A stretch of 32,916 bases of DNA, taken from positions 1 through 32,916 of the forward strand of contig CAMKSY010000006.1 in NCBI GenBank assembly GCA_946415545.1, written 5' to 3'. The notes under the pieces were generated by a model. It was not told the DNA's origin. It worked only from the letters and a program-made list of their open reading frames with translations, and ran no database searches. Of this stretch, positions 5,816 to 24,630 are shown in pieces. Position 1 is the first letter of the stretch. Each line of letters starts with the position of its first letter. The position numbers and the translations under genes are program-made. Source of the stretch: an uncultured Pelosinus sp. (lineage in GTDB: Bacteria; Bacillota; Negativicutes; DSM-13327).

Positions 5816-7108
5816 TTAGCTGCGCAGCCAGTAATATCCGGTGAGCACAAGGGGGATTGCCAGCGCAACAGCGGATATGGTACTCCATTCCTTGCCAGCC
5901 AGAGGTGCGATCATTCCGAACAATGTAATCACTATAATCATCACTGGCAGCAGCCAAATTTGCCTGAGCGACTGCCGTACCGGCGGGATTGTTGTAGTCG
6001 GTTGCCTACTCACTCCATTGCTTTTGTTCGGCCTGCATTTGACAAACCAAGCGTAAATGCCAGTGATGATCATAATGCAGGTCAATGCATCCGTTATAAA
6101 CCATAAAATTTTCAGCGGCAGGGTGTCATGATTACTGAAATGAACCGGAGTAGCCATAGAAAGTGTCTGGATATACCAAGGCTGCTGAATGACGGCGGTA
6201 ACCTGTCCCGTAGACGCATCAACCCAGACAGGCTTATTAAAATGTGCAGCCAAGCCTTGCCCCTGTGTACGAACTGTATAATGCCAGCGCATTTTTCCAT
6301 CTTCCTGTGGCACTTCAATCCCCGTTATTCTGCGATCGGTCACAGCAGCTTGGGCTGCTTCTAATGCTTCATCAATAGAAATACGCTGAACAGGAAAAGG
6401 CTTGCCTTGATACGCAGTTAAGAATTCTTTATGTATGCCTTCGTTCCAAGCATTATGAATCGGATCAGAAAATATAAAAATAAAACCACTTAGACTTAAT
6501 AATACTGCCCAGGAAAGTGTAGTAATCCCCAATAATTTATGCCAGTCCATCCAATAGATACGTCGGTGGGAAGAACGGATCGTCCCAAAAGAGATGTTTT
6601 TCATGAAGGGTGCATACAGCCAGATTCCTGAGATCAAAGCGATAACACTCAATCCGCACATGGTTCCGAACAAGTACCTGCCGAATGACCCGAGGTACAT
6701 ATCGACATGCATCCTGTAGGCAAATTCGATAAACTTTGGGATTATTTCATACCGTACTTGCTCATTAGACCGCTCTATAAATTGACCTGTGCTCAAATCT
6801 AGACGTGCATACTCATAGCCCTTATCTTGAGACCGCAAGGAAAAGATATTCCTATGCCTTTCATGATCCAGATAGACAACACGCAGGTTATAGCCAGGGT
6901 AACGTTCCAGCACCGCTTCCGCCTGCTTGCCCACAGACAGTTTAGTCAAATCTACTAAGGATACTTCTGAAGGCGTAGGCACGCTAACCTGATTAAATGC
7001 CGCCATTTCCCTGCCAAAGATTAAGGGCAAGGCGCTTGCACACATACTCAACAGAAAAATTGCACAAATCAAACTTGTCCATTTGTGGATTTTATACCAG
7101 TATTTCAT
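5816..7108 (-). CDS. PepSY-domain membrane protein (putative siderophore-iron reductase, PiuB-like)
   Basis: 430 residues with a PepSY_TM layout: a first membrane helix at about 10-32, a long extracytoplasmic region, helices near 145-170 and 190-215, a second soluble PepSY region (DEALEAAQAAVTDRRITGIEVPQ), a helix near 340-360 and two more at the C-terminus. Histidines that could bind haem sit at helix edges (KIHKW, RMHVDMY, DWHKLLG). Members of this family lie beside TonB-dependent receptors and are thought to reduce ferric siderophores in the periplasm. The gene converges on receptor 1, and a Fur-like site lies upstream, which supports that role. ATG 7106-7108 is preceded by GGGGGAG at 12 nt. 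The family call is firm; the reductase activity is inferred. Confidence 0.82.
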   Translation of the reverse strand: MKYWYKIHKWTSLICAIFLLSMCASALPLIFGREMAAFNQVSVPTPSEVSLVDLTKLSVGKQAEAVLERYPGYNLRVVYLDHERHRNIFSLRSQDKGYEYARLDLSTGQFIERSNEQVRYEIIPKFIEFAYRMHVDMYLGSFGRYLFGTMCGLSVIALISGIWLYAPFMKNISFGTIRSSHRRIYWMDWHKLLGITTLSWAVLLSLSGFIFIFSDPIHNAWNEGIHKEFLTAYQGKPFPVQRISIDEALEAAQAAVTDRRITGIEVPQEDGKMRWHYTVRTQGQGLAAHFNKPVWVDASTGQVTAVIQQPWYIQTLSMATPVHFSNHDTLPLKILWFITDALTCIMIITGIYAWFVKCRPNKSNGVSRQPTTTIPPVRQSLRQIWLLPVMIIVITLFGMIAPLAGKEWSTISAVALAIPLVLTGYYWLRS

Positions 7109-7243
7109 TGTTTTAAAGAACTCCCCCTGCCTGCATTACCAGAACAATCCTATGTAAATGGTTCAACGTATTGCGGCGTAAATTTTGTAGCGGCATGGGT
7201 AACTATTATTTCAAGCATTGTCATACCAAAATTATATAATAAT

Positions 7244-7262
7244 AATTATCGTTATCATTATA
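7244..7262 (-). promoter_or_regulatory. Fur box and -10 element of the PepSY gene
   Basis: Read on minus, TATAATGATAACGATAATT matches the Fur consensus at 14 of 19 positions. Its first six bases (7257-7262) are a perfect -10 hexamer, but no good -35 is visible. The rest of the 7109-7521 gap is AT-rich and shows no other gene. Confidence 0.55.
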
Positions 7263-7521
7263 TAATTAAAAATTTTTTCTACTCCATAGCCAATTATATA
7301 GTATACTAATCAACTGAATGTTGATGACTTTCATTAGTATAACAACCCATACTTTCATTCGTCAAGAATTCTAGCTCGTTATAAGCGGCTCTAATCAAAC
7401 CTGCCTCCCCTGTAGAGAGACAACAAAACCAGTATTATTACTATGATAACACAAATGATGTCGTGATATAAAAGAGCATAAATATATCATTTCAGAGTAT
7501 TTATAATCACCTTTTCCAAAA

Positions 7522-8529
7522 TTAAAATAAGGATTTCTTAAACTCCCGAGGCGTAACCCCATATGTCTTTTTGAACGCCACCGCAAATTTGCCGGGGCTT
7601 TCGTAGCCCACCGCAGCAGCAATTTCTTGTATGGTCATGCAGTGCGACATTAACCGAGCAGCCTGTTTCATCTTTTCCTGATGCACATAGCCGCCAATCG
7701 AAACCCCCAAATAAGCCTTAAAACATTTACGCAGCTTGGTAACGCCCATTTTCCCGATGATGGCAAGCTGATCAATCGAAGGCGGATGGTGAAAGCTTTG
7801 GTCCAGCACGTCTTTTACCAATACAATATTTCTCCCTTCCTGCCAGGCCGCAAAGCGATTACTAATCCCTTCTGTTGAGAAATTTTTCTGGTACTGCACA
7901 TTGCGCAAGATTATCGCCAGTATCTCCAGCATTTTCCCTTCATAATACAGATGGGATATCCGCGCCTCACCCCGCAGGGCGTACTTTAGCTGCTCAAATG
8001 CCACCACCAGATCCGGTGTATTATAATGTTGGCTTTGCCACTCCAAAGCCCCCGCAAGCTGAAAAGGCCCATCAATAAAATTACTCTGTACATGAGTTGC
8101 AATAAATTCATCACAGACCAGCACACTTGTCCACCAAATCGGTTCGTCTGCGCCAATAATCAGCTTTACCGTCTGTCTCCGGTGAACTAGTATATGGATA
8201 CCCCGCCTCAGCCGCCTGGCTTTTTTTCCTGGCTCAATCACGATAATATTACCCCGTTCCACGGAACAAACCCACACGCCCATTGGCACAACCCTATAAC
8301 TGTACGTTACTGCTTCCTTCACCATAAAACGGGCATAACTGGCCACTAATCCTGGTGATGGATGAGTATCCAAAAGGTAACCTCCACTGCGATCATTTGT
8401 ATAATAGTCGTTATATTCCGGCGGCAGGCAATAGATATGTGCATCGCCGTCACGGGTCTCTTTGCATCCCAAATACTTTGCCAGTCCACTACTGCCAAGC
8501 TTGTATTCATTGGTTTCCACAATCATCAT
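7522..8529 (-). CDS. AraC-family transcriptional regulator (AraC2)
   Basis: 335 residues and a clear paralog of AraC1: shared stretches include the YNTPxLxxAFEQLKY block, the YxEGKxLEIL block and the C-terminal double helix-turn-helix (IDQLAIIGKMGVTKLRKCFKA ... IQEIAAAVGYESPGKFAVAFKKTYGVTPREFKK). It is divergent from receptor 2, which it probably activates when the cognate ferric siderophore is present. Two tandem ATG codons (8527-8529 and 8524-8526) follow GGAAGG at 0 and 3 nt, so the true start could also be a few codons downstream. The cysteine cluster of AraC1 is missing, suggesting that the two regulators sense different signals or that the cluster is dispensable. Confidence 0.85.
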   Translation of the reverse strand: MMIVETNEYKLGSSGLAKYLGCKETRDGDAHIYCLPPEYNDYYTNDRSGGYLLDTHPSPGLVASYARFMVKEAVTYSYRVVPMGVWVCSVERGNIIVIEPGKKARRLRRGIHILVHRRQTVKLIIGADEPIWWTSVLVCDEFIATHVQSNFIDGPFQLAGALEWQSQHYNTPDLVVAFEQLKYALRGEARISHLYYEGKMLEILAIILRNVQYQKNFSTEGISNRFAAWQEGRNIVLVKDVLDQSFHHPPSIDQLAIIGKMGVTKLRKCFKAYLGVSIGGYVHQEKMKQAARLMSHCMTIQEIAAAVGYESPGKFAVAFKKTYGVTPREFKKSLF

Positions 8530-8750
8530 CCTTCCACAAGAGGCGCAAACTGCCTATTGATCCGCCAATTATTTTTTTAATTATAACATGATAAAATCGT
8601 CAACTGTCCCACTAACTTGCCCAAAACAACTCGTTTTTTTTCCTTAACGACAAGGAAATTTTTATATTTGCATCCAAAAATCCAGCATTACCACACACAA
8701 TTCCAATCAAATCCTGCCTCTTACCTATATACTGCCACTCTTTTCAACAG

Positions 8751-8800
8751 TTGACGCCGGTAAATTGGCCTTGTTATACTGAGACAATCCGGATTGAGAA
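8751..8800 (+). promoter_or_regulatory. Promoter and dyad upstream of receptor 2
   Basis: TTGACG (8751-8756), 18-nt spacer, TATACT (8775-8780), then a perfect 12-bp palindrome CAATCCGGATTG (8785-8796) at the predicted start point. The layout (promoter, then dyad) mirrors receptor 1, but the dyad sequence differs, consistent with a different operator. Only a poor Fur-like sequence follows (near 8797-8816). The rest of 8530-8905 shows no gene. Confidence 0.45.
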
Positions 8801-8905
8801 CAATTATTATTATTAACGGGAGACAGCTTCTTTGTATTATAGCCGTTCTCACCATAATCCCAAAAGTTGCCTTCCATGCAAGCACAAAGGAGTCGATGAA
8901 CAACC

Positions 8906-11077
8906 ATGCAACGAAAATTTCCCCGTACAGGGAAAAGCCTTCTCTATGCTCTGATTGGGAGCAGTCTGCTCTATCATATGCCACTTGCCTATGGTGCAGA
9001 AGAAACGGCAGATTCAACCATCCCAGCAAGCGCTCAGAAGCAAAATGAATTCACCTTGGAAGGAGTGGAAATAACAGCAGCAAAGGACCAGCTGGACAAA
9101 GGCTATGTCGCCAAACGCAGTAGCGCCGCCACCAAGACCGATACGCCACTGGAAGAAACGGCCCGTTCCATCAGCATCATTACCCGAGAGCAGATGGACG
9201 CCCGTGGCGTCACCGATATGTTTGATATTCTTAGCTATACGCCGGGCTTTAGCGATGCTGGCTATAATAATCGCGGTAACCGTTATGAATCTTACACTCT
9301 CCGCGGCTTTAGCGGCACTTCTTTCATCGACGGATTACGCATGGCAAGCGGTGGTTTTGCCATTTCGAATTATGATCCCTATAGCTTTGAACGTGTTGAA
9401 GTTCTGCGTGGTCCTGCGGGAATTCTTTATGGTACCACAAGCCCTGGCGGCGTCACAAATAAAGTATCCAAGCGGCCTACTGCCGAACCACTGCGGGAAA
9501 TCCGGCTGCAAACTGGTATTGATCATGAACTAAGCGGTGCGGTAGATATCAGTGGGCCAGTCAATGATGACGGCAGACTGCTGTTTCGCCTGACTGCTCT
9601 TTCCAGTGAAGAAGACCTGCCAGTCGACTATAGCAGCGCTGAACGTCAAATGATTGCTCCTGCCCTCACCTGGCGGCCGAATGAAAATACAAGTCTAACC
9701 TTATTAGCACATTATCAGAAAGATGACATCAAAGGCGACTCTTATAGTTCGATTTCACAATATCAACCTGGAAATGTGCTATACGGATATTCCGGAACGA
9801 GATTTTTCGGCGAACCCGATTATGATCGTTTTATACGAGAAGATAAGCAAATCGGTTATATTCTGGAACATCAGTTTAACGATATCTGGTCGGTCACACA
9901 GAGTGCCCATCATTCTAATATTTTCACTGGCATGAAAGAGCTGAACGTCAACAGTATCGCTGATGGTATTGCCAGCCGTACGGCTGAATACTATAAAAGC
10001 GATCTGAGCGCCAATCTCATGGATACGCATTTCACCGCCAAATGGTACGGCGGTGCAGTTGATCATACTACATTACTGGGCTTTGATTATTATAATTATA
10101 ACTATGACTACTACTGGCTCAGCGGTCCAGCTCCCTCATTAAACCTTAATACGCTAAATTATGGTCAGACAGTTACCACACCAACAACGATTTCATATCT
10201 GACAGATACCGATGTGAAGCAGACTGGCTGGTATCTCCAGGATCAGCTCAAATTTAGCAAACGCTGGACGGCAACTGCCGGCGGACGCTATGACCGCTAC
10301 AACAGCTGCACAACAAACCGTTTGAGCGGAGCACGTACCATTATCGATCAGAATGCCTTCACCGGACGCCTTGGATTAGTCTATGACGCTGGCAACGGAC
10401 TATTCCCCTATGTGTCCTATGACGAATCCTTTGAGGGCCTAGCCGGATCAGACCGCTACGGCAATTCCTTTGACCCAACAACAGGCCGGCAATACGAACT
10501 GGGGATACAATATGTTCCGGAGAACAGCAATGTTCGTTTTACAGCCGCAATCTTTGATCTTCGCCAGCACAATATTCTGACCACTGACCCTTTAAATGAA
10601 AGCTTAGGCGGCAGCTTTAGCGTACAAACTGGCGAGATTGCCGCTAAAGGCTTGGAACTGGAGGCCACAGTAGCCGCCTTTAAGAATCTAAATGTTACTG
10701 CAGCCTATACCTATATGCCAGATCATGAAATTACCAAAGACAATAATCCCGCTAAAGTTGGTCGTCGCACATCAAATGTTCCACGCCACAGTGCTTCCCT
10801 ATGGATTGACACTGCCGCTCCTGGCAAAGAGCAACAGGGCTGGGGATTTGGCGGAGGACTGCGTTATATTGGCTCACGATATAACAGCGCCAATACGAGA
10901 AAAGCCAGTGATGTCATCGTAGCCGATGCCATGATTCGATATGACCAAGGCGAATGGCGCTACGCCCTTAACGCTCATAATTTATTTGACAAGCACTATG
11001 TCATGTCACCCGGCAATACTGCAGATGGTCTCGACCCAGGCAGAATTATCCGCCTGACCGCTACCCGCCACTGGTAA
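8906..11077 (+). CDS. TonB-dependent siderophore receptor 2
   Basis: 723 residues, a close paralog of receptor 1 over its whole length. Signal peptide ([20 protein letters not shown]), TonB-box region (FTLEGVEITA), plug (TPLEETARSISIITREQMDARG ... VEVLRGPAGILYGTTSPGGVTNKVSKRP), barrel and terminal aromatic residue (LTATRHW). An in-frame TGA just upstream makes ATG 8906 the only good start, yet AAAGGAG is 13 nt away and an out-of-frame ATG at 8896 sits 3 nt behind it. The same GGAGTCGATG leader precedes receptor 1. Transport of a ferric siderophore across the outer membrane is inferred from the family; the ligand is unknown. Confidence 0.93.
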   Translation: MQRKFPRTGKSLLYALIGSSLLYHMPLAYGAEETADSTIPASAQKQNEFTLEGVEITAAKDQLDKGYVAKRSSAATKTDTPLEETARSISIITREQMDARGVTDMFDILSYTPGFSDAGYNNRGNRYESYTLRGFSGTSFIDGLRMASGGFAISNYDPYSFERVEVLRGPAGILYGTTSPGGVTNKVSKRPTAEPLREIRLQTGIDHELSGAVDISGPVNDDGRLLFRLTALSSEEDLPVDYSSAERQMIAPALTWRPNENTSLTLLAHYQKDDIKGDSYSSISQYQPGNVLYGYSGTRFFGEPDYDRFIREDKQIGYILEHQFNDIWSVTQSAHHSNIFTGMKELNVNSIADGIASRTAEYYKSDLSANLMDTHFTAKWYGGAVDHTTLLGFDYYNYNYDYYWLSGPAPSLNLNTLNYGQTVTTPTTISYLTDTDVKQTGWYLQDQLKFSKRWTATAGGRYDRYNSCTTNRLSGARTIIDQNAFTGRLGLVYDAGNGLFPYVSYDESFEGLAGSDRYGNSFDPTTGRQYELGIQYVPENSNVRFTAAIFDLRQHNILTTDPLNESLGGSFSVQTGEIAAKGLELEATVAAFKNLNVTAAYTYMPDHEITKDNNPAKVGRRTSNVPRHSASLWIDTAAPGKEQQGWGFGGGLRYIGSRYNSANTRKASDVIVADAMIRYDQGEWRYALNAHNLFDKHYVMSPGNTADGLDPGRIIRLTATRHW

Positions 11078-11354: not shown

Positions 11355-13067
11355 TCAGGCGACTAAATCCCAGCAGCCTTTTCCTTTAATGGTAAGGATT
11401 TTCTGATGATAAGCATATAAGTCCTTACGATGACCAACGCTCATGACTCCAGTGCCCTTTAACTCACTGCGGAGCAGACTATATAATTTTTTCTCCGTAG
11501 CTTCATCCAATCCGGATGTAGCCTCATCCAAAAATAGCCACTGAGGCCGCTCAAAAATGCCACGAGCAAAGGCAATGCGCTGCTGTTCGCCCAGAGAAAG
11601 AACATGAGACCAATTCTCCTGCTCATCCAAACGTTCCAATAAATGCTCCAAACAACATTTCTTTAGAATCCCCTGGATTGCTTCCTCTGCATATTCCTGG
11701 CGGGAGCATGGATAAAGCAGGGCTTCCCGCAAGCTCCCGACAGGTAAATAGGGCGACTGGGGTAAAAACAAGCACTGCTGATTCTGGGGAATATGAATAT
11801 GCCCCTCACCAAAAGGCCAAATCCCGGCAATTGCCTTGATCAATGTACTTTTGCCACAGCCAGATGATCCGGTAATCAGCAACGATTCACCGGGCTGCAG
11901 CCTCATGGCAAAGTTGTCCAGCAATAGCTCCCCATTTGGCAGCTTGAGATTCAAATTCTCTACTGAAAAAGCCGCATCAGATGCATCCATAATCCGAATT
12001 GACTGTTTCAGATCCAATTGCTTAAATTCTTCCATCGTATCCATCAAAATAACCAATCGTTTTACAATGGCTTTTAGCTCTATGATCTCTTTATACCAAC
12101 TAGAAAAAAACAAAAGTGACTGCTGTACCTTTTCAAAAGCTCCTGTGACCTGCATCAGTCCTCCCAGCTGAAGGTCTCCGCTAAAAAAGCGCGGTACTGC
12201 AACAATATAGGGGAGAGGCTCTGCCCCCTTGCATAAGAAAAAAAACAAACTATCTACGATTTTTTGGCGTTTTATCGATTGATGAAAATTATCATACACT
12301 TTTTTAAAATAATTCCTAAGCAAATAACGTTCCCGCTTTTCTCCAGAATACAATGCAATCTCCTCTGCGTACTCTCGTAGACGTACTAAGGCAAAACGAA
12401 AATTTGCTTCATAACGCTGCTGCAAAAAATTGAGTTGTACCAGAGGGTGCCCCATTTTACCCATAACACGATCTACCATCAAAGCATATCCCACGGCTAT
12501 CCAAACCATATCACCGGGAATTGTGATACTCGACTCTCCCCAAGACAAAGAAAAACTAGCTGATAAATCCCATAGAATTACGGTAAAACTGCATAGGATT
12601 CCAAGATTGTACAAGAACCACAAAAAAATTGTCAAAAGAGAATCGATGAATAATTTTACATCTTCACAAATCATCTGATCCGGATTATCAATGCCATTAT
12701 CCTGAAGCTGCAGACAATAATACTTTTTTGACTGCAAATATTCCTCCAACAGCCGATCAGTCAGCCAATTGCGCCAGCTTACCGCCAACAGCTGACGAAG
12801 ATAGTTCTGGTAGACACTTACCGCCCAAGCCGCCAGTATCAGGCCTCCCCAAAGACATAAGGAATCTAAAAATGCCACCATATCCCTGTTCTGTAATGTA
12901 TTGAAAAACATATTGCGCCATTGATTCAACCACACCTGAATATAAACGCTGGTAATATTCAGCCCAATAATAACCAGCAATAGTATTATGGCATAATTTT
13001 TTGCCTTCGACCGCCAATAATGGTTACCAACCCTCCAGATTCCTTGTAATAGGCCAAAATCCTCCAC
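11355..13067 (-). CDS. ABC transporter, fused permease and ATPase (SbmA/YddA/ABCD type)
   Basis: 570 residues. An N-terminal membrane domain of the ABC_membrane_2/SbmA kind (about 1-340, with KNYAIILLLVIIGLNITSVY and the WRNMFFNTLQNRDMVAFLD segment) is fused to a nucleotide-binding domain. Walker A is GSSGCGKST, the signature is LSLGEQQR and Walker B is WLFLDEATSGLD. Relatives include YddA of E. coli, which lies beside a TonB receptor gene, SbmA/BacA peptide importers and Rv1819c, which imports cobalamin. Start is GTG 13065-13067 with AAAGGTGAG 7 nt upstream. A promoter with an embedded Fur box precedes it, so it belongs to the iron-starvation set. Substrate and direction of transport are unknown. 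Confidence 0.85.
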   Translation of the reverse strand: MEDFGLLQGIWRVGNHYWRSKAKNYAIILLLVIIGLNITSVYIQVWLNQWRNMFFNTLQNRDMVAFLDSLCLWGGLILAAWAVSVYQNYLRQLLAVSWRNWLTDRLLEEYLQSKKYYCLQLQDNGIDNPDQMICEDVKLFIDSLLTIFLWFLYNLGILCSFTVILWDLSASFSLSWGESSITIPGDMVWIAVGYALMVDRVMGKMGHPLVQLNFLQQRYEANFRFALVRLREYAEEIALYSGEKRERYLLRNYFKKVYDNFHQSIKRQKIVDSLFFFLCKGAEPLPYIVAVPRFFSGDLQLGGLMQVTGAFEKVQQSLLFFSSWYKEIIELKAIVKRLVILMDTMEEFKQLDLKQSIRIMDASDAAFSVENLNLKLPNGELLLDNFAMRLQPGESLLITGSSGCGKSTLIKAIAGIWPFGEGHIHIPQNQQCLFLPQSPYLPVGSLREALLYPCSRQEYAEEAIQGILKKCCLEHLLERLDEQENWSHVLSLGEQQRIAFARGIFERPQWLFLDEATSGLDEATEKKLYSLLRSELKGTGVMSVGHRKDLYAYHQKILTIKGKGCWDLVA

Positions 13068-13119: not shown

Positions 13120-13149
13120 ATTATATTAGATAACGATAATCACTGTCAA
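13120..13149 (-). promoter_or_regulatory. Promoter with embedded Fur box for the ABC transporter
   Basis: Minus-strand TTGACA (13144-13149), 18-nt spacer, TATAAT (13120-13125). GATAACGATAATCACTGTC (13129-13147), overlapping the spacer and -35, matches the Fur consensus at 16 of 19 positions. Confidence 0.82.
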
Positions 13150-13197
13150 TTACACTCTGGCTTTATTTCTATGTAAATTAGCGATTTACCAAAAAAA

Positions 13198-13236
13198 ATA
13201 TCACTGCCGCCTTTTTGCCAAAGGCGGCAGTGATAT
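13198..13236 (-). terminator. Intrinsic terminator of the receptor/hydrogenase-like operon
   Basis: A perfect 17-bp stem (13198-13214 with 13220-13236, 5-nt loop) is followed on minus by a T tract of eight after one A. It ends the operon that starts with the receptor at 17413 and separates it from the ABC gene. Confidence 0.92.
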
Positions 13237-13243
13237 TTTGCAA

Positions 13244-13792
13244 TCATGAATTGAACAGCTTCGTCCGGCAATAGTCAAATACGTCTTCTGGCTTTTGCAT
13301 GAGAAGAAATTGAGCAATTTCTTCTTTCAGATGCTGCAAACGCAATTGTTCCCCATCGGTTATCGTCCCATCATGCGTCTTATAAGCAAGGCGAATAAAT
13401 TCATCCGGCAGTAAGCCCGGCTTTAGGGTAATAACGAGTGTATCCTTGTCATAAGCAATTTCAAAATAATATTTGCCTCCCTGCCCGTCAGCCGCATCAG
13501 GTGCCAATTTATCAGCAGCCAGCTGAGGATTAACCCGTAACGCATTTCTTCTCATGACTCTGGTGACCATTTCAATACCATCGATAATGCCCGGCCCATA
13601 TACCCCCAGGGTTACCGTAATCTTGTCCCGCACCGGAACTTCAACTGGTACTAACTCACGAAAAGCCAATTCCAGCAGTTTATACGCCAGAGCCACACCG
13701 CCAATAAATTGTCGTCCGTGGTATTTAAGCATATCCTCATAGGTTATCACCAATACATCATTGCCATCTTGAATCCTAAGAGCCTGTTGCAC
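13244..13792 (-). CDS. FmdE-like protein lacking the metal-binding cysteines
   Basis: 182 residues. The segment YHGRQFIGGVALAYKLLELAF near residues 24-44 resembles the (F/C)HGHxCPGLAxGxR motif of FmdE-family proteins, and GPGIIDGIEMVT resembles their second motif (the cysteine-containing DAVQxLTGC region). The characteristic cysteines are absent: the only cysteine is near the C-terminus (DYCRTKLF). FmdE proteins are small zinc/iron-sulfur proteins of uncertain role encoded with molybdenum enzymes or metal transporters. Start is GTG 13790-13792, overlapping the upstream stop by one base (TAGTG) with AGGAGGAGG 5 nt before, so translation is coupled. It is the last gene of the receptor operon. 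The family assignment is moderate. Confidence 0.55.
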   Translation of the reverse strand: MQQALRIQDGNDVLVITYEDMLKYHGRQFIGGVALAYKLLELAFRELVPVEVPVRDKITVTLGVYGPGIIDGIEMVTRVMRRNALRVNPQLAADKLAPDAADGQGGKYYFEIAYDKDTLVITLKPGLLPDEFIRLAYKTHDGTITDGEQLRLQHLKEEIAQFLLMQKPEDVFDYCRTKLFNS

Positions 13793-14889
13793 TATATCCT
13801 CCTCCTGTCTTTTCCATGTGTATCATAGCATTTTATCTCCGGCCAAATATAATCAGCTATCGTAAGAGTGCGGTTAAAGGAAGCAAAGGCTGCTGCAACC
13901 TCCTGCCGTAAGTCGACATTACCAACTGCTGACGTTTGCGGGAGGACTCCCGGCAGCATTTTGCCTGTACCGGTACCACTGTCACAGCCTGCCTCACAAT
14001 TATAGATTTCCAGCAAATCGGGCAGCGAGTCACCAGCCATAAGAGCAGCTTCATATTCTGCTAAATAAGAATAAACTCCGCTGCCGCTGACTTTTTTAAA
14101 CCTCCTGTCCGGAAGCTGCTGATTCAGACTTGTGCACCCGCTGCCGTTTGCTCCTAAGGTGATTCCCTGCCCTTCCTTGCTATCAGCAAAATCTACTGCC
14201 TCATACCGACTCAGATCAATACCCCGCTCTACGATATACTGCTTTAACTTACCGATCGTAACACTATATTGAATCTTACTGCCGCTTCGCCGCAGTTCCC
14301 CGCGTTTGGCAATACAGGGTGACAGGAATGCCAGATCATCATCAAGCTGCCGATATTTTTTTAAAAACACAGCACTGCACACCAGGGGACTATACACAGG
14401 CATCAAATGAGAGCGCAACGCCGGCATATGGTTCATGATATAGTCAGTTACAGCTGCACAAGGCGATGAGATAAAAGGCTTGCCGTAATTGCTGCTCAAT
14501 ATCTGAGCATAAGCCCACAGAGTAATATCCGCACGCAATACAACATTATAAAATTTTCTTACACCTAAGGATTGCAGAAAACCAAATACCTGCCGATAAT
14601 CCTTAAAGTGACGTCGAACTGCCGGAGCAACCAACAAGGAAATTTGCCTCCCCTTTGCCAAATCCTGCAGAAACAGCTCGATATCATCCTGGTAGTCGAT
14701 GGCTTTTTGCGGGCATCTGCCCAGACAAAGACCGCAATGAATACACCCCTGGGGCAGAGCCATTTTCATTGTCACTCCTGCACCCTTTCCTTTATGTAAA
14801 GGACATTGCTGTAAACAGATCCGGCACTGTCGGCAGCCGGACAAAAGCAGCATTTGCCTGCCTTTGTCCTTATTGCATAGGGTAGACAT
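13792..14889 (-). CDS. [FeFe]-hydrogenase-like iron-sulfur protein
   Basis: About 365 residues. Two [4Fe-4S] ferredoxin motifs come first (CRQCRICLQQCP and CIHCGLCLGRCP), then a hydrogenase large-subunit-like domain. The three H-cluster motifs are recognisable but altered: L1 is SSPCAAV instead of TSCCPxW, L2 is LSPCIAKRGE, and L3 is NCEAGCDSGTG. The four cysteines that hold the H-cluster appear kept, but the proton-transfer cysteine of L1 is a proline, so hydrogen catalysis is doubtful and a sensory or redox role is more likely. I chose ATG 14887-14889: it overlaps the preceding stop (TAATG) and has GGAGGGAG 10 nt upstream, whereas the longer reading would run into the ECF-like gene. It is small for a true hydrogenase. 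Confidence 0.75.
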   Translation of the reverse strand: MSTLCNKDKGRQMLLLSGCRQCRICLQQCPLHKGKGAGVTMKMALPQGCIHCGLCLGRCPQKAIDYQDDIELFLQDLAKGRQISLLVAPAVRRHFKDYRQVFGFLQSLGVRKFYNVVLRADITLWAYAQILSSNYGKPFISSPCAAVTDYIMNHMPALRSHLMPVYSPLVCSAVFLKKYRQLDDDLAFLSPCIAKRGELRRSGSKIQYSVTIGKLKQYIVERGIDLSRYEAVDFADSKEGQGITLGANGSGCTSLNQQLPDRRFKKVSGSGVYSYLAEYEAALMAGDSLPDLLEIYNCEAGCDSGTGTGKMLPGVLPQTSAVGNVDLRQEVAAAFASFNRTLTIADYIWPEIKCYDTHGKDRRRI

Positions 14890-15395
14890 TATGACTTGGC
14901 TCCCTCCAGTCTTTTCATTATCATATAGCATAGTACTCCTCCAATTGCTCCCGTAATCAACTGAGGGTAACCAAACATCATTTTCAGACCAGCCGATAAT
15001 TTCTCAGATACATTCATCAGTTCTACCAAAATTGAAATTGCCATATACATTCCCACCATCTTTAAGCTGGCAGCTGCACCTACTGCCAGCCAGCGACTGA
15101 CGGGCAGCAGCATCCGATAGCTGGCAACATACATGATATTGGCAGCCGCTATGGGAAAGATAAATAATGGGCTTGGTAAAAACTGCTGCATCGCGGCAAC
15201 CGTCGGCGCAGCTACAGCCAGTACAATTGCAGGCTTCCAGCCGCTTTGCTCCACTGCCAGCAGCAAGCAGGCATTCACCGCACTGCCGATAACAAACATC
15301 GAGATAAAAAATGGAATAGGGACAAGCAGCCTGATGGACTGCAGTGCAATCATCAGTGCTAGCAAAAGCGCGGCTCTGGTTAGTCTACGATACAT
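14889..15395 (-). CDS. Small polytopic membrane protein, ECF transporter S-component-like
   Basis: 168 residues, almost entirely hydrophobic, with five or six predicted membrane helices (for example ALLLALMIALQSIRLLVP, FFISMFVIGSAVNACLLLA, LITGAIGGVLCYMIM). The size, the LALMIALQSIRLLVPIPF beginning and the short loops resemble the substrate-binding S components of energy-coupling-factor vitamin and metal transporters. No ECF A or T component is in the window, so it would have to use a shared module elsewhere. GGAGG lies 8 nt before ATG 15393-15395. It follows the receptor by 56 nt in the same operon and overlaps the next gene by one base. It might carry across the inner membrane whatever the receptor brings in; that is inference. 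Confidence 0.55.
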   Translation of the reverse strand: MYRRLTRAALLLALMIALQSIRLLVPIPFFISMFVIGSAVNACLLLAVEQSGWKPAIVLAVAAPTVAAMQQFLPSPLFIFPIAAANIMYVASYRMLLPVSRWLAVGAAASLKMVGMYMAISILVELMNVSEKLSAGLKMMFGYPQLITGAIGGVLCYMIMKRLEGAKS

Positions 15396-15451
15396 TGGTT
15401 ACGCCTCCGTTTTTCAAGTATAGGCTGTCATACAGCCAGTTCACTGCAACG

Positions 15452-17413
15452 TTATAGTTTGATTTTGTAGCTGGTGTGGATATATGCGCCTTGGATTGAT
15501 AAATCGTCATCCTGTTTATTAAATAGGTTATCTACTCCTACAATGATCGCACTGTTGCTGCTGATTGCTTTCTCCAGATTCACATTCCATAAGGTATAGG
15601 ACTTGTTCTTGCCGACGCCCGCCGAAGCCTCATATAGATAATTGCTGTAGGTCTCAGACCATAAATTAGCCCGTAAGCCTGCCGACGATTCCACATAGGA
15701 TAAGCGGGAGGCTATTTTATGCCTGGCTCGATTAAAAAGCCTGCTTCCCTCTGTATCATTTACCGCATCTAGATAAGTATAACTGGTCGTCCAATGCATT
15801 TTTTCCGACAACGGATAAACAACTTCTGCTTCCATGCCTTGAATGGTAGCTTTATCGATGTTTTTATATTGAATCGTACTGCCGTTTATCATATCCTCTT
15901 CAATCATGTTGCTGACCTTATTAGTGAAATAGGTAATTTTACCGGTAGTCCGCCCCCAGTCCCGTTCTAAGGAAAGCTCATAGGAATTGGAATCTTCCGA
16001 ATCGAGATTGGGATTTCCAAGTAACGTCATTGCCTTACCGTTGCGTACTACCTGGGAATTAATATACAACTGATTCGGAGTAGGGCTGCGAAATCCTTTA
16101 CTGATATTCAGCTTAACACGAAGATCATCAGCCGCCTGATAGGTAAGTCCCAGCTTTGGGCTTACATTGCTGCCAAATTTATTGCTGTCGTCATACCGCA
16201 GTGAGGTAACTGCAAGCAGCTTAGAGGATGCCTGCCATTCATCCTGAACGTACAAGGCTGAATAATCAATATCAACTTTGGAGCCGGGCAGGGTTTTTAT
16301 TTCTCCGGAAACCGGGTCTTTATAGGTTTCTGTATAAATCCCCTCGCCGGTTCTTACCCCTGTTCCGCGAAATTTTTCCGGCCGGTATTCACCCCCAAAG
16401 GTGAGCAAATGATCGGCTCCATACTTCTTACTTAGGCGTGCTTCAAAGCCGGGAACCGTACGATGGGATTTACCAAAGTTCATAAATTTATGATTAGCAA
16501 GATTATGTACATCTACATTCTTATAATAATTTGATAAATAGGTTCGGAAGAATAACGATGCATCGTCCTGCTGCTTGCTGTAGCTCAGTGCATATTCGGT
16601 TCGTTCATTATCATCATGAACCTCTGTTTTCACTTTGCCGGCGGGAGTCTGTTTAAAAACTTGCTCTCGTGTATCTTGATCCATATAAGATGCTGTAAAT
16701 GTAAAAACTTCATTTTCATTAATATGATAATCCATCTTGGTATTGAAGTTATTGATTTTGCCAAAGGGCGCATAGGTTGTCCCATCCTCCTTAAAAGAAG
16801 CATCATTCTTTAATTGGGCTCCTGAGATGGTAATACCGTATTTGCCGATTCTGCCGGAGTCATAGGCAACATGATAATTATCTCTTGCTCCCTCATTCCC
16901 CCTATAGGCTCCATGATCCAATTGCAAAGTAAAGGCTTGATCGACAGGACTCTTGGTAATAATATTGACGACCCCTCCCAAAGCATCTGTACCATAGAGT
17001 GAATTGGCAGGTCCGCGAACGATCTCAATACGCTCGACATTGTCCAGATCAATGCGTTCCAGTTCATAGTTTTGGTCGATCTCCGAAGCAATCCGCTTAC
17101 CGTCAATTAAAATCATTGAAAATCTGGAATCGAAACCGCGAATGGAAATCGCATTTTTACCATCTGCTCGCATCACACTGACTCCTGTGGCTGTACTAAT
17201 GATATCTTTTAACGTCTGCGCCCCCCGCGCTTCGATATCGGCTTTGGTTATAACCTGAACCGCCGTAGGAACACTTTTTACATCCCTGCTGGTTCTAGTA
17301 GCGGTTACAACTACCTCCGACAGAGAAAATACTTCCTCTTCCCTTTCCTGAGCCTGAACAACAGGAACAGTCAGCAGTAGTGACAAGAACGCACATATGG
17401 TTTTCTTCTTCAT
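15452..17413 (-). CDS. TonB-dependent receptor 3 (FepA/CirA/BtuB-like)
   Basis: 653 residues. Signal peptide (MKKKTICAFLSLLLTVPVVQA), TonB box in SEVVVTATRTSR, plug with SVPTAVQVITKADIEARGAQTLKDI and IEIVRGPANSLYGTDALGGVVNIITK, then a barrel with typical landmarks (SKGFRSPTPNQLY, GNPNLDSEDSNSYELSLE, NLFNKQDD). It is not closely related to receptors 1 and 2: it is shorter, lacks their LEGVEV leader and ends in YKIKL instead of an aromatic residue. It resembles colicin I/enterobactin/B12 receptors, whose ligands cannot be separated by eye. AGGAGG lies 6 nt before the ATG. It heads a Fur-boxed operon with the ECF-like, hydrogenase-like and FmdE-like genes. Confidence 0.9.
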   Translation of the reverse strand: MKKKTICAFLSLLLTVPVVQAQEREEEVFSLSEVVVTATRTSRDVKSVPTAVQVITKADIEARGAQTLKDIISTATGVSVMRADGKNAISIRGFDSRFSMILIDGKRIASEIDQNYELERIDLDNVERIEIVRGPANSLYGTDALGGVVNIITKSPVDQAFTLQLDHGAYRGNEGARDNYHVAYDSGRIGKYGITISGAQLKNDASFKEDGTTYAPFGKINNFNTKMDYHINENEVFTFTASYMDQDTREQVFKQTPAGKVKTEVHDDNERTEYALSYSKQQDDASLFFRTYLSNYYKNVDVHNLANHKFMNFGKSHRTVPGFEARLSKKYGADHLLTFGGEYRPEKFRGTGVRTGEGIYTETYKDPVSGEIKTLPGSKVDIDYSALYVQDEWQASSKLLAVTSLRYDDSNKFGSNVSPKLGLTYQAADDLRVKLNISKGFRSPTPNQLYINSQVVRNGKAMTLLGNPNLDSEDSNSYELSLERDWGRTTGKITYFTNKVSNMIEEDMINGSTIQYKNIDKATIQGMEAEVVYPLSEKMHWTTSYTYLDAVNDTEGSRLFNRARHKIASRLSYVESSAGLRANLWSETYSNYLYEASAGVGKNKSYTLWNVNLEKAISSNSAIIVGVDNLFNKQDDDLSIQGAYIHTSYKIKL

Positions 17414-17454
17414 CTTTTTCCTCCTAGCTTAACATCTTTACTAACGATTTTGCT

Positions 17455-17503
17455 GATAATGAAATTCTTTATCATTTACATCTGTTCATCATTATACTAG
17501 AAT
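17455..17503. promoter_or_regulatory. Fur box and divergent promoters (receptor 3 operon / Crp gene)
   Basis: GATAATGAAATTCTTTATC (17455-17473) matches the Fur consensus at 16 of 19 positions. On minus, a perfect TATAAT (17491-17496) points to receptor 3 but has no good -35. On plus, TTTACA (17475-17480), 17 nt, TAGAAT (17498-17503) could drive the Crp/Fnr gene, so one Fur dimer site may touch both. Confidence 0.68.
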
Positions 17504-17558
17504 AAATGTATACTTTTCGTAGCCCATGTTACATTATTTTGACAAGCTGGTGATAACA

Positions 17559-18242
17559 ATGTCTGATATTCTTAAAATTATTACTCACTGCCCGTTGTTT
17601 AAAAATTACTCTCTCCTGCAAATTCGGGAGTTTTTCGCCGACACAAACTACAGTATAAAACGCTATAAGAAAAACCAGTTAATTTTTCGAATGGATCAGC
17701 CCATTACTCATGTCGGCATTGTTCTCACCGGCAGTGTAGAAGTTCAAAAAGTCATTCAATCAGGCCGAATGATCAATCTGATTTATAAGGAACGAGGCGA
17801 TATTATTGCGGAAGGTACTGTCTTCTCTACCATACCTACGTATCCCTGCCAGGTAACCTCCCGGGAAACAACGGATATTCTGCTGCTGCCCAAGGAGTAC
17901 ATGGTCCAGGCTCTAGGCTGCAATCCCAACCTTTTGACCAACCTTTTGCAGTTGATGTCTGATAAGCTTATCATGTTGAATACTAAAATAGAATTGTTAT
18001 CCTATTGCTCGATCCAAAGTAAAATTGCTTTTTCTTTATTGCATTGTATAAACCAAAATCCAATGGCAGAAGAGATTGAGCTTCCTTATTCCAAAACAGC
18101 CTGGGCCGAGCATCTCAACGTACCCCGCCCCTCACTGTGCCGGGAATTGAGAAATCTCTGCAAGACCAATATTATTACCTTACATAAGCGAAGGATTACC
18201 ATTGTGGACAGGATGCAGCTGGAAGCGATGCTGAATGAATAA
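17559..18242 (+). CDS. Crp/Fnr-family transcriptional regulator
   Basis: 227 residues. A cyclic-nucleotide-binding-like beta-roll (about 10-130: NQLIFRMDQPITHVGIVLTGSVEVQK ... GDIIAEGTVFS) is followed by a dimer helix and a C-terminal HTH_Crp (SKTAWAEHLNVPRPSLCRELRNL). There is no N-terminal cysteine cluster, so it is not a classical iron-sulfur FNR. ATG 17559 is preferred because GGTGA lies 6 nt upstream; an in-frame ATG at 17526 has no ribosome site. It is divergent from the receptor 3 operon and is a candidate regulator of it. The effector is unknown. Confidence 0.85.
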   Translation: MSDILKIITHCPLFKNYSLLQIREFFADTNYSIKRYKKNQLIFRMDQPITHVGIVLTGSVEVQKVIQSGRMINLIYKERGDIIAEGTVFSTIPTYPCQVTSRETTDILLLPKEYMVQALGCNPNLLTNLLQLMSDKLIMLNTKIELLSYCSIQSKIAFSLLHCINQNPMAEEIELPYSKTAWAEHLNVPRPSLCRELRNLCKTNIITLHKRRITIVDRMQLEAMLNE

Positions 18243-19656: not shown

Positions 19657-19811
19657 TTTATCCTAAAAACTAAGCTGCACCACCAGCGCCCTATCTCTGC
19701 TGGGCAATGGAATCCTTAATGTAGATTGAGCGTAACAAGCGCAGAAGCAACATGGTTTCAACACTCAATACATACGTTACAGGGCTTAACGGCTGCAGGG
19801 GCGTTGGCTGA

Positions 19812-22652
19812 ATTTCAATACATCTAATGTGTTAGTTACTCGTACCAATATAGCCTTTGTACCAGACGCTACTAAATTTCAATACATCTAATGTGTTAGT
19901 CACTCTGTCAGAGCCATCCGGCAAACTGCCATCTTGCACTTATTTCAATACATCTAATGTGTTAGTTACTCGCTACAGCCGGAGGCAACCCAATTCAAAG
20001 AAACAGATTTCAATACATCTAATGTGTTAGTTACTCAAAACCATACTTACGTAGACGAGCTGCCACACTCTCATTTCAATACATCTAATGTGTTAGTTAC
20101 TCTAAATCTCTTCTGCATGTTCCTTGCTGGCATTCTAATTTCAATACATCTAATGTGTTAGTTACTCTTCTCTCTTGGTAACCTCTTGGTGCGGAGCGAT
20201 ACATTTCAATACATCTAATGTGTTAGTTACTCCCTGTCTCATTGCTTCTTCAATATCAGTGATCATTATTTAAATACATCTAATGTGTTAGTTACTCAGT
20301 TGCGATATTGAGCCATGTAGTGGTGGTCATCCATTTCAATACATCTAATGTGTTAGTTACTCTATTTTTAACGCCTCTTATATTGTTCCAACTGGCAAAT
20401 TTCAATACATCTAATGTGTTAGTTACTCAACGGATAAAGTATTTTCCAGTTTTTATGGATTTAATTTCAATACATCTAATGTGTTAGTTACTCGAAAGTA
20501 AAGATGATTTACAAAGAAACCTGACGTTATTTCAATACATCTAATGTGTTAGTTACTCAGCACGACATTGCAACGAAACAGAGAATTGATGCCGATTTCA
20601 ATACATCTAATGTATTAGTTACTCGACAGGCGTATAGAAGAACATCGTCTGGAATATGGATTTCAATACATCTAATGTGTTAGTTACTCACAATTAGATT
20701 CTATAGGCCTACATATGTTGCTATATTTCAATACATCTAATGTGTTAGTTACTCGTAGTATCTACGTTTCTACCAGACCATAATAGCCAATTTCAATACA
20801 TCTAATGTGTTAGTTACTCGTATGATCCTTGGCGTGTAAACTGTGGTATGTCTCATTTCAATACATCTAATGTGTTAGTTACTCCACGCCACCTATGTTA
20901 CCGATTATGTATAGTTATAGATTTCAATACATCTAATGTGTTAGTTACTCGAACGTTTAAATGCTTTGCTTGCTGCCAACTTCCTATTTCAATACATCTA
21001 ATGTGTTAGTTACTCAGTGCTTCCTCGCAAAATTCTTCATCTAGATAATCTATTTCAATACATCTAATGTGTTAGTTACTCAATTCATCATGATCGATTG
21101 GGTAGCAGGTTGCGGTATTTCAATACATCTAATGTGTTAGTTACTCCTAAATTATCAACCTTAGACTGGCAAGGTGTGCATATTTCAATACATCTAATGT
21201 GTTAGTTACTCTTGCCTACCGTTGTACCGTGTGGCATACCATCATATATTTCAATACATCTAATGTGTTAGTTACTCGCGACATTCTAATCGTTATATCG
21301 AGCATTTTAATATCATTTCAATACATCTAATGTGTTAGTTACTCTTTGGAAGCCGTAGCAACAGTTAAAGAGTGTATCAAATTTCAATACATCTAATGTG
21401 TTAGTTACTCTGAACCATGATATTAGGCTTTTCTATCTCAAACAAAATTTCAATACATCTAATGTGTTAGTTACTCGCAAGTCTTGCCGGAAGTGTGGAC
21501 AAGAGATCGTATTTCAATACATCTAATGTGTTAGTTACTCATAAATTTCCTCCATCCTAGAACATCGTTAATCTGTATTTCAATACATCTAATGTGTTAG
21601 TTACTCGCTGGAAATTTAAGACGTTGGGCTGATGCCCTAGCAAATTTCAATACATCTAATGTGTTAGTTACTCGAAAAAGTATAACCTTTATTGTAGGTG
21701 ATAAATCAATTTCAATACATCTAATGTGTTAGTTACTCGAGCGGTACAGATAGAATGGCAGCTTATGCGAATGAATTTCAATACATCTAATGTGTTAGTT
21801 ACTCCAAGATCTACCACCGCAAATTCACAGAATTAGCAAATTTCAATACATCTAATGTGTTAGTTACTCTAGAACGAATGGGTAAGATCCTCGGACTGTT
21901 TAAATTTCAATACATCTAATGTGTTAGTTACTCAGGAATGGCCTTCGCTGGCACATTGAAAGTAGCTGAATTTCAATACATCTAATGTGTTAGTTACTCC
22001 AGGATCCGGCGGTAGTTCTGGCAATGTAATATAGATTTCAATACATCTAATGTGTTAGTTACTCCATGTATATCCCCCAACGATATAAGGAGGTGACATA
22101 ATTTCAATACATCTAATGTGTTAGTTACTCGTGCTAGCTTCATAATACTCGCACTACCGAAATTAATTTCAATACATCTAATGTGTTAGTTACTCGCGAA
22201 ATCTCTCCTTGGAGACTTTGGCGGGACATAATTTCAATACATCTAATGTGTTAGTTACTCTCTACTCCTTTACCTTTGTCTTGGTTTTTATCTAATTTCA
22301 ATACATCTAATGTGTTAGTTACTCGCAGACGCATTGAGGGCAACTGGTAGGCTATCCGAATTTCAATACATCTAATGTGTTAGTTACTCAAAATATTAAA
22401 ACCAACACCTTACCGCAAAGGATAATTTCAATACATCTAATGTGTTAGTTACTCCATGTTATCCAGCGACATTAAACAGCTTGTAAGCCGATTTCAATAC
22501 ATCTAATGTGTTAGTTACTCCCAATCAGCGCATTGAATTAATTGGCAGAATGTTTAAATTTCAATACATCTAATGTGTTAGTTACTCAATAAAACAGTAT
22601 CTGACTGGCTTCTAAATTACCAATTTCAATACATCTAATGTGTTAGTTACTC
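19812..22652 (-). CRISPR. CRISPR array 1, 44 repeats, type I-B
   Basis: Forty-four 30-bp repeats and 43 spacers of about 34-37 nt. In crRNA orientation (minus strand) the repeat begins GAGTAACTAAC and ends GATGTATTGAAAT; the ATTGAAAT end is the usual 8-nt 5' handle of type I-B crRNAs. The array therefore runs from the cas2 side (22652) towards 19812. Most repeats are identical; single-base variants are at 19876 (C for T), 20268 (A for C) and 20595 (A for G). Beyond the last repeat, 19757-19782 contains a fragment like a decayed repeat (CAATACAT ... GTTAC). The internal ACAT-TAG-ATGT dyad gives the weak hairpin expected for Cas6 processing. Confidence 0.98.
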
Positions 22653-22830
22653 CAAGGAAAATACTGCATTTGTCACAAGTCTATTTGCCTATAAATCCAG
22701 CATCTACAAGGGTTTCCCCAGTATTTTTCCAAGCTAAGCAGAGTTATATTACAGTTTATAATTAATGTCTCGCGACCTCTTTATTTATATGGCTTTCGCC
22801 ATCCTTATCCGCAAAACCTGCTTGGAAAAA
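22653..22830 (-). promoter_or_regulatory. CRISPR leader of array 1
   Basis: About 180 AT-rich bases between the first repeat (leader end, 22652) and the end of cas2. It should hold the pre-crRNA promoter and the integration signals for Cas1-Cas2, though no convincing promoter pair was found. Visible structure: an inverted repeat ATTTTTCCAAGC (22723-22734) with GCTTGGAAAAAT (22820-22831), an imperfect inverted pair GGAAAATACTG (22656-22666) with CAGTATTTTTCC (22719-22730), and a short hairpin with a GAAA tetraloop (22789-22802, read on minus). Confidence 0.65.
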
Positions 22831-23115
22831 TTAAAGGATAAGCGACTCGGTTTGTTTATGATCGGTTCCGAGAACCTCTTCGCTAAAGTCGGCCTTGCTC
22901 TTTAACTTTACGAGAGTAATAAAATCTTCATCCTTTACAATAATTTTGGCAAGTTCATTTTTTAATGCAATCAAATTAGCAGGAGTGATATGTCCTCGGA
23001 ATACTGACTTCTGATGATGCTTAAAATACTTTTTGCAAACCTTAAAAACTTTCTGTACCCTCTTTTCACCTATATCATAAAAAATGAATGCATAATTATA
23101 GTTAACATTACTCAT
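22831..23115 (-). CDS. cas2: CRISPR-associated endonuclease Cas2
   Basis: 94 residues, standard Cas2 size. The ferredoxin-like fold begins with the strand YNYAFIFYDI, whose aspartate (about residue 14) is the conserved one at the end of the first strand, followed by KRVQKVFKVCKKYFKHHQKSVFRGHI, the usual second region. Cas2 dimers bridge two Cas1 dimers in the spacer-integration complex. The ATG overlaps the cas1 stop (ATGA), with GGAGG 7 nt upstream, so it is translationally coupled. It is the last gene of the operon and abuts the CRISPR leader. Confidence 0.95.
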   Translation of the reverse strand: MSNVNYNYAFIFYDIGEKRVQKVFKVCKKYFKHHQKSVFRGHITPANLIALKNELAKIIVKDEDFITLVKLKSKADFSEEVLGTDHKQTESLIL

Positions 23116-24119
23116 CCTTTGTCCTCCATATTAAAAAAAGCAATCGGTTTTTCTTCCATTAGATATTTGATCAACTTATAACCATCTAGTCTTATGGTTT
23201 GTTTATATGAAACCTTTCGCCTAAGTTTACTATGTTCGAACACCCCGTTAATCCGTTCCTCGAATTCTGTAATAAACACTTTTCGTCCAGCATCATTAAG
23301 CAATGCATAATTTAATTTTTTGTCAAAATGTTTTGCTACACTTATTTTTCTATTGTTTACACAATCAAAAATAGTTTTGTATACCAAAATTGGCTTAAAT
23401 GCCTCTGATAAGTCTAAACTTAAAGAATAGCGCCGTTCCATTGGCTCATGTAGATACGAGATCGTTTGATTCAAATGAGTATGGTAAAGTTGTGTCAGCG
23501 TTTTTGTATACAATAGCGTATTACCAAAAGACACCAACGCATTCATTGGATTGTCAGGAGGACGCCTTACTCTTTTATTCATCGCAAATTCTTCCGGCAA
23601 GATGAGCTTAAAAGTTGCATAAAACCTGGCCCAAATTTCGCCTTCCAAGCTTAGCAAATTCTTGATAGCGCTGATGCGCAGTAATACATCAGGGACATCC
23701 TTCTTTAACCAATCCAGGAACGGTTTTAGCTCGCTCTTACCATGCCTGTAATAATGATATAGAACAGAATGAATGTTTAAGGAAATTGCTTTTACAATAG
23801 CTTTCGCAATGGTCAAACGTTTTTCCTGATTATCATAGGCTAATGCTTGTGAAACGGTCAGCCTGCCGCTAAGCAGATAATCTTTGGGATAGAACGTTCC
23901 CACATAGTTTTCATAGTAGCCAAAAAAATGCACTACAATTCCAGATTTTGATAATATTTCTAATAATTTTGTACTTAACGTGATGTCATTAAAGCAATAT
24001 AATTCTTTTGTATCTTTAATCGGTAGATAAATATTGCCACGCTCACCACGAAAACAAATTGAAAAATCTTTGCGGCTTAAATCACCCTTAGAAAAAATAT
24101 AGCGTGTCTCTTCTTTCAT
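23112..24119 (-). CDS. cas1: CRISPR-associated endonuclease/integrase Cas1 (type I-B)
   Basis: 335 residues. The N-terminal beta domain contains LVVHF-type strands (SGIVVHFFGYYENYVG), and the helical catalytic domain carries the metal ligands: E159 in SLEGEIWARFY, H224 in SYLHEP, and D236/E239 in SLSLDLSEAFKP. Together with Cas2 it cuts and inserts new spacers at the leader end of the array. Length and motifs are those of an active type I-B Cas1. It lies between cas4 and cas2 in the operon. Confidence 0.97.
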   Translation of the reverse strand: MKEETRYIFSKGDLSRKDFSICFRGERGNIYLPIKDTKELYCFNDITLSTKLLEILSKSGIVVHFFGYYENYVGTFYPKDYLLSGRLTVSQALAYDNQEKRLTIAKAIVKAISLNIHSVLYHYYRHGKSELKPFLDWLKKDVPDVLLRISAIKNLLSLEGEIWARFYATFKLILPEEFAMNKRVRRPPDNPMNALVSFGNTLLYTKTLTQLYHTHLNQTISYLHEPMERRYSLSLDLSEAFKPILVYKTIFDCVNNRKISVAKHFDKKLNYALLNDAGRKVFITEFEERINGVFEHSKLRRKVSYKQTIRLDGYKLIKYLMEEKPIAFFNMEDKG

Positions 24120-24141
24120 TCCATAATCTCCCTATCTATTT

Positions 24142-24630
24142 CTAAATATAGCAATATTCGTAATAAGCACAACGCTTACAGCCTGTTTTTAAATTTGCTG
24201 CAGGAGGAATCGGGCTAAGTAAAAACTCTTCTATTTCCGCATATTGTTTATTAAGCTGTTGAACCAATTCTTCATTAAGCTCTGTATAATGAACTTTCTT
24301 ACCTTGCTTGTTTTTTTCCCATACTTCCAACCGCCCTTTGCGATTAATTCCCTTTTGGGCCAGCCGCAGCAGATAAAACTGGATTTGTGCCATAGCCGCA
24401 TTAAGATCAGCATCAGATTTCTTTAGCTCCACCACATATTCATCAGTAATCTTGTCCAGTTTGATATTATCAATAGCTAATTCTCCGTCCTTCTCCGAGT
24501 TGAGTGCATGCAATACTCTGCCGATTCGCACATCTTCAGAATTATCTTCCAGATTCAGCTTGTGATAGAACAGCCAGCATTGCCGGGGACAATGTACATA
24601 ATAATTAACAAGTGTACCAGTTAGCATCAT
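24142..24630 (-). CDS. cas4: CRISPR-associated exonuclease Cas4
   Basis: 162 residues, a compact Cas4. An N-terminal cysteine (C14 in VHCPRQCWLFYH) and three C-terminal cysteines (GCKRCAYYEYC) can hold the [4Fe-4S] cluster. The RecB-type nuclease core is present: GRVLH, a central acidic stretch, EYVVELKKS and the QIQFYLL helix (QxxxY). Cas4 trims prespacers and selects those with a correct PAM and orientation, with Cas1-Cas2. Two tandem ATG codons overlap the end of cas3, so the start may be one codon later; either way translation is coupled. Confidence 0.95.
   Translation of the reverse strand: MMLTGTLVNYYVHCPRQCWLFYHKLNLEDNSEDVRIGRVLHALNSEKDGELAIDNIKLDKITDEYVVELKKSDADLNAAMAQIQFYLLRLAQKGINRKGRLEVWEKNKQGKKVHYTELNEELVQQLNKQYAEIEEFLLSPIPPAANLKTGCKRCAYYEYCYI

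Follow-up and report, generated by a model that had tools for sequence, protein, structure and literature searches.

Among the described systems nearest to the locus considered here is an operon of C. difficile, in which the 'iron hydrogenase-like' gene CD630_29920 is combined with ssuC2B2A2 and which is annotated as a system for sulfonate uptake (PMC6311696). This operon is induced under low iron (log2 2.6-3.5) and raised in a fur mutant (4.4-6.1; 5.8 for the hydrogenase-like protein), and hydA, the gene of the true hydrogenase, falls where it rises (PMC6311696). Sensory [FeFe]-hydrogenases of the group C/D type, such as TmHydS and TamHydS, contain the same domain as the hydrogenase-like protein of our locus and have likewise replaced the proton-transfer cysteine; in low-activity sensory hydrogenases, the same residues are replaced as in our protein (PMC11803613). 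For ECF transporters, a single precedent connected with iron is available, the iron-controlled haem transporter LhaSTA of S. lugdunensis (PMC7299338). The literature searched contained no description of a TonB receptor gene combined with genes for an S component, a hydrogenase-like protein and an FmdE-like protein, and a search for FmdE together with ECF and Negativicutes returned nothing. The statement of the first-pass annotation that no characterised example is known holds for the combination as a whole, but has to be qualified by the partial precedent in C. difficile (PMC6311696).

In this work, a window of 32,916 nucleotides from an uncultured Pelosinus sp. (the window being the whole stretch of DNA analysed) was found to contain a minus-strand operon that runs from 17413 to 13244 and, according to the list of open reading frames, comprises these four genes in the order receptor, S component, hydrogenase-like and FmdE-like. 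The operon is preceded by a Fur box (GATAATGAAATTCTTTATC, 17455..17473, three mismatches to the 19-nucleotide consensus), which lies between it and a divergent Crp/Fnr-family regulator gene (17526..18242, plus strand; PF00027 and PF13545), and is followed by an intrinsic terminator (13195..13239, minus strand) with a 20-pair stem, a 5-nt loop and a T tail (TTTT). The four-gene operon, the 16/19 Fur box ahead of it and the strong terminator at its end, all proposed earlier, were confirmed. Of the one-base overlaps that had been placed at two junctions, the one between the hydrogenase-like and FmdE-like genes is real (TAGTG), whereas the one between the S component and hydrogenase-like genes is not. 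Because the conserved start of the hydrogenase-like gene is the ATG at 14931 and not that at 14889, this overlap spans 43 nt and the encoded protein is 379 amino acids long; ATG 14931 has a perfect Shine-Dalgarno motif, GGAGGAG, 4 nt upstream and is conserved among relatives, whose genes have no start codon at the position of ATG 14889. Downstream of the operon, an SbmA/BacA-like ABC transporter gene (11355..13067, minus strand; PF06472/PF05992 and ABC_tran) has a Fur box of its own (13129-13147). It adjoins the operon in four other Pelosinus genomes, was not seen adjacent to it outside the genus, and is probably not part of the unit. On the other side, the window holds at 19811-31313 a CRISPR array (44 listed copies of a ~30-nt repeat with a spacing of 65-66 nt) with a type I-B cas set (Cas1, 4, 3, 5, 7, 8b, 6), adjoined by a gene for a Fic/DOC-family protein (31685-32344, plus strand).

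Five Fur boxes of the class with at most three mismatches, among them that at 17455-17473, are present in the window against 0.03 expected. The box of the operon has kept its position in relatives whose proteins are as little as ~46% identical, and the operon boxes resemble the Fur consensus of C. difficile, TGATAATVAWHWTCA (PMC6311696). Scans showed that each of the 11 loci with a TonB receptor and an S component has a Fur box directly before its first gene, with at most three mismatches in ten and four in one. Among the operons associated instead with NMT1-type ABC genes, a box is present in four of the five that could be assessed (L044, L068, L072 and L074); L069 is the sole assessable locus where it is absent. 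Altogether, 15 of the 16 operons that could be assessed, covering both importer types, have a Fur box ahead of them, compared with approximately none in shuffled sequence, which assigns the gene set to iron starvation. On the strength of this conserved promoter site, the operon is predicted to belong to the Fur regulon. Elsewhere in the window, an iron-receptor island (1524-11077) encodes a TonB protein and two TonB-dependent receptors, each paired with its own AraC-type regulator, as well as a PepSY_TM protein (5816-7108), and contains Fur boxes at 2065, 3447 and 7238. Proteins of the PepSY_TM type are linked to siderophore reduction.

The outer-membrane receptor (653 aa, 15452..17413, minus strand) possesses both the plug and the barrel domains (PF07715 and PF00593), and its closest solved structure is CirA (E 8e-48), a catecholate-siderophore receptor. 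It falls below the cut-off of every ligand-specific NCBIfam model and scores about equally against those for TonB-hemin (212 bits), TonB-B12 (205) and CirA (192), so the class of cargo is not fixed by the receptor. In P. propionicus, the operon receptor gene is split into two frames of 523 and 151 aa (L029, 1587-3610).

The small membrane protein encoded next (168 aa, 14889..15395, minus strand) matched no Pfam family. Its AlphaFold2 model (pLDDT 85) consists of six helices and is closest to TmRibU (Z 16.2 over 153 residues); the first 20 structural matches are all ECF S components or related cobalt/nickel proteins, and the next has a Z of 6.3. Helix 1 carries the AxxxA motif (A9xxxA13; serine replaces A9 in L031). 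The predicted fold confirms the assignment to ECF-type S components and bears out the first-pass proposal of an S-like inner-membrane component that would act with the outer-membrane receptor in an iron-controlled uptake operon. Near rpoA and truA, the same genome encodes a canonical ecfA1-ecfA2-ecfT cluster, which was identified from gene order, motifs and sequence start; with such a shared module, a lone S component can work. LhaSTA is alike in placing an ECF route under iron control, but has its own T and A subunits, occurs in a monoderm, and is not reported to include a hydrogenase-like or an FmdE-like protein (PMC7299338). A second TonB receptor adjoins an ECF S component in the genome of the window (L111, 791-7380); in contrast to the operon, this Trep_Strep-type cluster has an S component of another family (PF09605), its own EcfT and a double ATPase, and an ABC exporter.

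The third protein (13792..14931, minus strand) matches PF02906 (Fe_hyd_lg_C) with an E-value of 2e-25 and 90 bits against a cut-off of 22, but lies far under the hydrogenase cut-offs of NCBIfam (114.6 of 450 and 68.9 of 406). A ferredoxin-like N-terminus with eight cysteines is followed by the H-cluster domain, whose cysteine equivalents C144, C192, C298 and C302 (numbered from the 14889 start, not from 14931) are invariant in all 14 operon members. In an alignment to a Desulfovibrio hydrogenase the four cubane cysteines are kept, and the proton-transfer cysteine (C299 in CpI) is a proline, being alanine or arginine in other operon members; the alignment and the residue table agree here with what had been noted from the sequence at first. 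In the 14 members compared, the proton-path glutamate (E279 equivalent) is replaced by alanine and the active-site methionines (M353 and M497 equivalents) by serine and tyrosine. The AP motif and the lysine and glutamate of PCxxKxxE are kept in the long forms; the latter two residues are gone in the forms of 221-223 aa. An invariant cubane site combined with a replaced proton path suggests that selection has preserved the former and not hydrogen chemistry. The eight ferredoxin cysteines are decaying in the TonB/S members L045-L047 and absent in Treponema and in the short forms, which weakens the case for a simple electron-relay role. When the phylum sample was searched again, only one true case of the short form was recovered, and this form had no relative on plasmids; plasmid relatives of the full-length protein are distant only, mostly annotated as ordinary hydrogenases or unannotated, and no relative was found in the viral contigs searched.

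The fourth protein (182 aa, 13244..13792, minus strand) itself gave no profile match at E<=1. Seven of 14 FmdE-like relatives matched PF02663 (best 6e-5), comparison with the FmdE profile yielded an hhalign probability of 88%, and an FmdE with a signal peptide, from the same bacterial family, could be aligned to the protein (23%, E 2e-7). The predicted structure (pLDDT 89) has an FmdE fold: its best match is 2glz (Foldseek E 2e-6, Z 12.8), and the three FmdE structures 2glz, 2gvi and 3d00 reach Z 10.7-12.8, compared with 6.6 for the next, unrelated structure. By the modelled fold and the matches of relatives, the FmdE relationship is confirmed; the first-pass caution that the last two genes might belong to unrelated families was not borne out, as the relations to PF02906 and to FmdE both hold. 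The fold and the HG and D positions are shared with FmdE, whereas the metal cysteines (HGHxC, CxVD) are absent in 14 of 14 members, in line with the loss first noticed in the window. Instead, the family has a conserved set of its own (K23, H25, K38, R55, D71, E74, R78 and YYF). A profile search of the family against PDB returned chance matches only, and no catalytic site could be recognised in the protein. Since the two cytoplasmic proteins fail the defining features of their families, they should be classed neither as a hydrogenase nor as a canonical FmdE.

Gene neighbourhoods were compared in genome samples that are subsets of the class (380 genomes) and of the phylum (398), many of the genomes being incomplete. 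FmdE-like genes were found in 12 of the 380 and 3 of the 398 genomes, and additionally at L044. All 17 loci adjoin importer genes, 11 of them a TonB receptor with an S component and six an NMT1/SsuA-type ABC system. The four genes are conserved together, so that a lack of linkage elsewhere, which the first-pass annotation had named as a refutation, was not observed: the divergent Crp-family regulator, receptor, S component, hydrogenase-like and FmdE-like genes are present in five Pelosinus genomes including that of the window, and the same set occurs in other Negativicutes with as little as 46-50% identity, with the receptor placed after the FmdE-like gene instead of leading at three loci. The operon is also present in P. 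fermentans. The Crp-family gene stands divergent from all 11 operons of this type and from L044. In Propionispora-type loci, a possible regulator palindrome, GTATC-N4-GATAC, lies in the intergenic region near this gene (L032, 7042-7181; L071, 7197-7340); it was not seen in the Pelosinus loci. Within the ABC group, L044 and L069 combine the hydrogenase-like gene with genes for a binding protein of the NMT1 type and an ATP-dependent activase of the BadF type, and four loci have an NMT1-type ABC importer, two of them led by a short hydrogenase-like gene (L068 and L072), one on a truncated contig and one without a hydrogenase-like gene. One genome (G699) carries both versions, which indicates that different importers are used with a constant FmdE-like protein, itself usually accompanied by a hydrogenase-like partner. 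Two further associations were rejected: a flavin reductase at L074, considered as a stand-in for the hydrogenase-like protein, is separated from the importer genes by a Fur box and so is probably outside the operon, and at L051 of Treponema the hydrogenase-like gene and a FecCD-type importer are convergent, which makes their link weak.

The C. difficile operon is similar to L068 and L072 in that a hydrogenase-like gene accompanies NMT1/SsuA-type ABC genes in the same order, its homology to the hydrogenase-like genes of these loci resting on the annotation ('iron hydrogenase-like') and not on sequence comparison. It differs from the operon of the window in having no FmdE-like gene reported, no TonB/ECF route and no Fur box found (PMC6311696).

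The families and folds of the four proteins, the Fur-type promoter sites, the linkage to two kinds of importer and the residue losses form the observed basis for a model of import of an iron complex followed by a dedicated cytoplasmic redox and binding step that frees the iron, a reading that we prefer at somewhat less than even confidence. In this model, the TonB receptor would carry a small iron complex that resembles a siderophore, or possibly haem, over the outer membrane, and the S component would bind it at the inner membrane, where the housekeeping EcfA1-EcfA2-EcfT module would drive its intact entry. The hydrogenase-like protein may use its H-cluster scaffold for Fe-S electron transfer at low potential rather than for hydrogenase activity, and the FmdE-like protein may hold the ligand or the complex, so that Fe(III) would be reduced and released; the NMT1/SsuA-type ABC importers with the same module would serve other complexes. 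We infer the nature of the cargo, its intact entry, and its reduction and binding by the two cytoplasmic proteins. In an anaerobe, a low-potential Fe-S protein is naturally suited to reductive release, and its synthesis in iron famine would be repaid if iron is gained by it. Beside the hydrogenase-like gene, L044 (4860-8951) and L069 (1269-5264) encode BadF/DUF2229 activase-like proteins of ~1350 aa that are 40% identical. The BadF-type activase family drives ATP-dependent reductions; its occurrence beside two members suggests ATP-driven reduction in that version of the operon and points toward reductive release as well. Earlier, the locus had been interpreted as an uptake system with a dedicated redox or sensing step. 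Overall this is partly supported, the iron-controlled uptake operon and the additional step carried by the hydrogenase-like and FmdE-like proteins being the parts that stand.

The phylogeny of the hydrogenase-like protein runs counter to a reductase, as its closest relatives are sensory proteins. A tree of 46 rows unites the long operon proteins in a single clade (100/99), whose sister group is made up of hydrogenase-like proteins with fused MCP or GGDEF-EAL domains. These share the proline at the position of the proton-transfer cysteine, so this substitution, noted at first in the window, is not confined to the operon; TamHydS has alanine there. The tree makes it a serious, if unlikely, alternative that the protein senses redox state, H2, CO or cluster status in the cytoplasm and adjusts the uptake genes in response, perhaps together with the Crp-family regulator and with the FmdE-like protein as a partner. 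The constant presence of the divergent regulator gene at the TonB/S operons and L044 would suit such a role, as would the residues lost in common with low-activity sensory hydrogenases (PMC11803613). The sensory hydrogenases, however, have signalling domains, whereas a profile search detected no signal output domain in the protein of the window and the operon members, of 221-379 aa, lack one; the short forms retain only the four cysteines. Moreover, no Crp-family gene was seen to adjoin the operons with short forms, and expression within an uptake operon would be unusual for a regulator of that operon.

Still less probably, the operon may import a metal-free nutrient, such as a vitamin, sulfonate or thiol, that is needed when iron is short and is converted by the cytoplasmic pair. 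The usual cargo of ECF S components and NMT1/SsuA importers, mostly vitamins or sulfonates, is in favour of this, together with the annotation of the C. difficile operon as sulfonate uptake (PMC6311696). Fur-box control in almost every lineage argues against it, as does a receptor family made up mostly of siderophore, haem and B12 carriers. No riboswitch that could serve as a clue to the substrate, and in particular none for a vitamin or sulfur, was found at the operon. A cobalamin riboswitch is present at 956-1137 on the minus strand of the window (Rfam, 100 bits).

Maturation of the hydrogenase-like protein to a full H-cluster, with H2 oxidation providing electrons for iron reduction, appears quite improbable. 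The four cubane ligands and, in the long members, the AP motif and the PCxxKxxE lysine and glutamate would permit it, and 17 of the 18 genomes examined have a gene for HydG. Against it, the proton-path cysteine and glutamate and both active-site methionines are replaced, and the short members are also without the lysine and glutamate. As a sign of H-cluster assembly, HydG was discarded, being accounted for by true hydrogenases in the genomes checked; the lone genome without it is uninformative, since its contig breaks off at the operon locus. That the genes are chance neighbours or a decaying remnant with no joint function can practically be dismissed: the operon is rare (12 of 380 class genomes), absent from three Pelosinus genomes and has a broken receptor gene in one relative, but its order, overlaps and Fur box are kept to 46-50% protein identity and the cysteines are invariant.

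Returning to the import and release of an iron complex, each part of the operon comes from a known superfamily, and it is a real possibility that the cytoplasmic step is novel in kind. More tentatively, an Fe-S protein derived from a hydrogenase and an FmdE-derived ligand-binding partner might constitute a new anaerobic machine for iron release that evolution has paired with at least two unrelated importers (TonB with ECF, and NMT1-type ABC), a proposal that we regard as possible but rather doubtful. The release of iron from imported complexes in strict anaerobes is poorly known because the oxygen-dependent haem oxygenases are unusable there, and a Fur-controlled module of a hydrogenase fold and an FmdE fold that recurs with different importers is a testable candidate for this step. 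If the proposal is true, it would provide a physiological role for the non-hydrogenase branch of the [FeFe]-hydrogenase superfamily and for an FmdE branch without the metal site, and it would help to account for the rise of a hydrogenase-like protein in C. difficile under iron scarcity.
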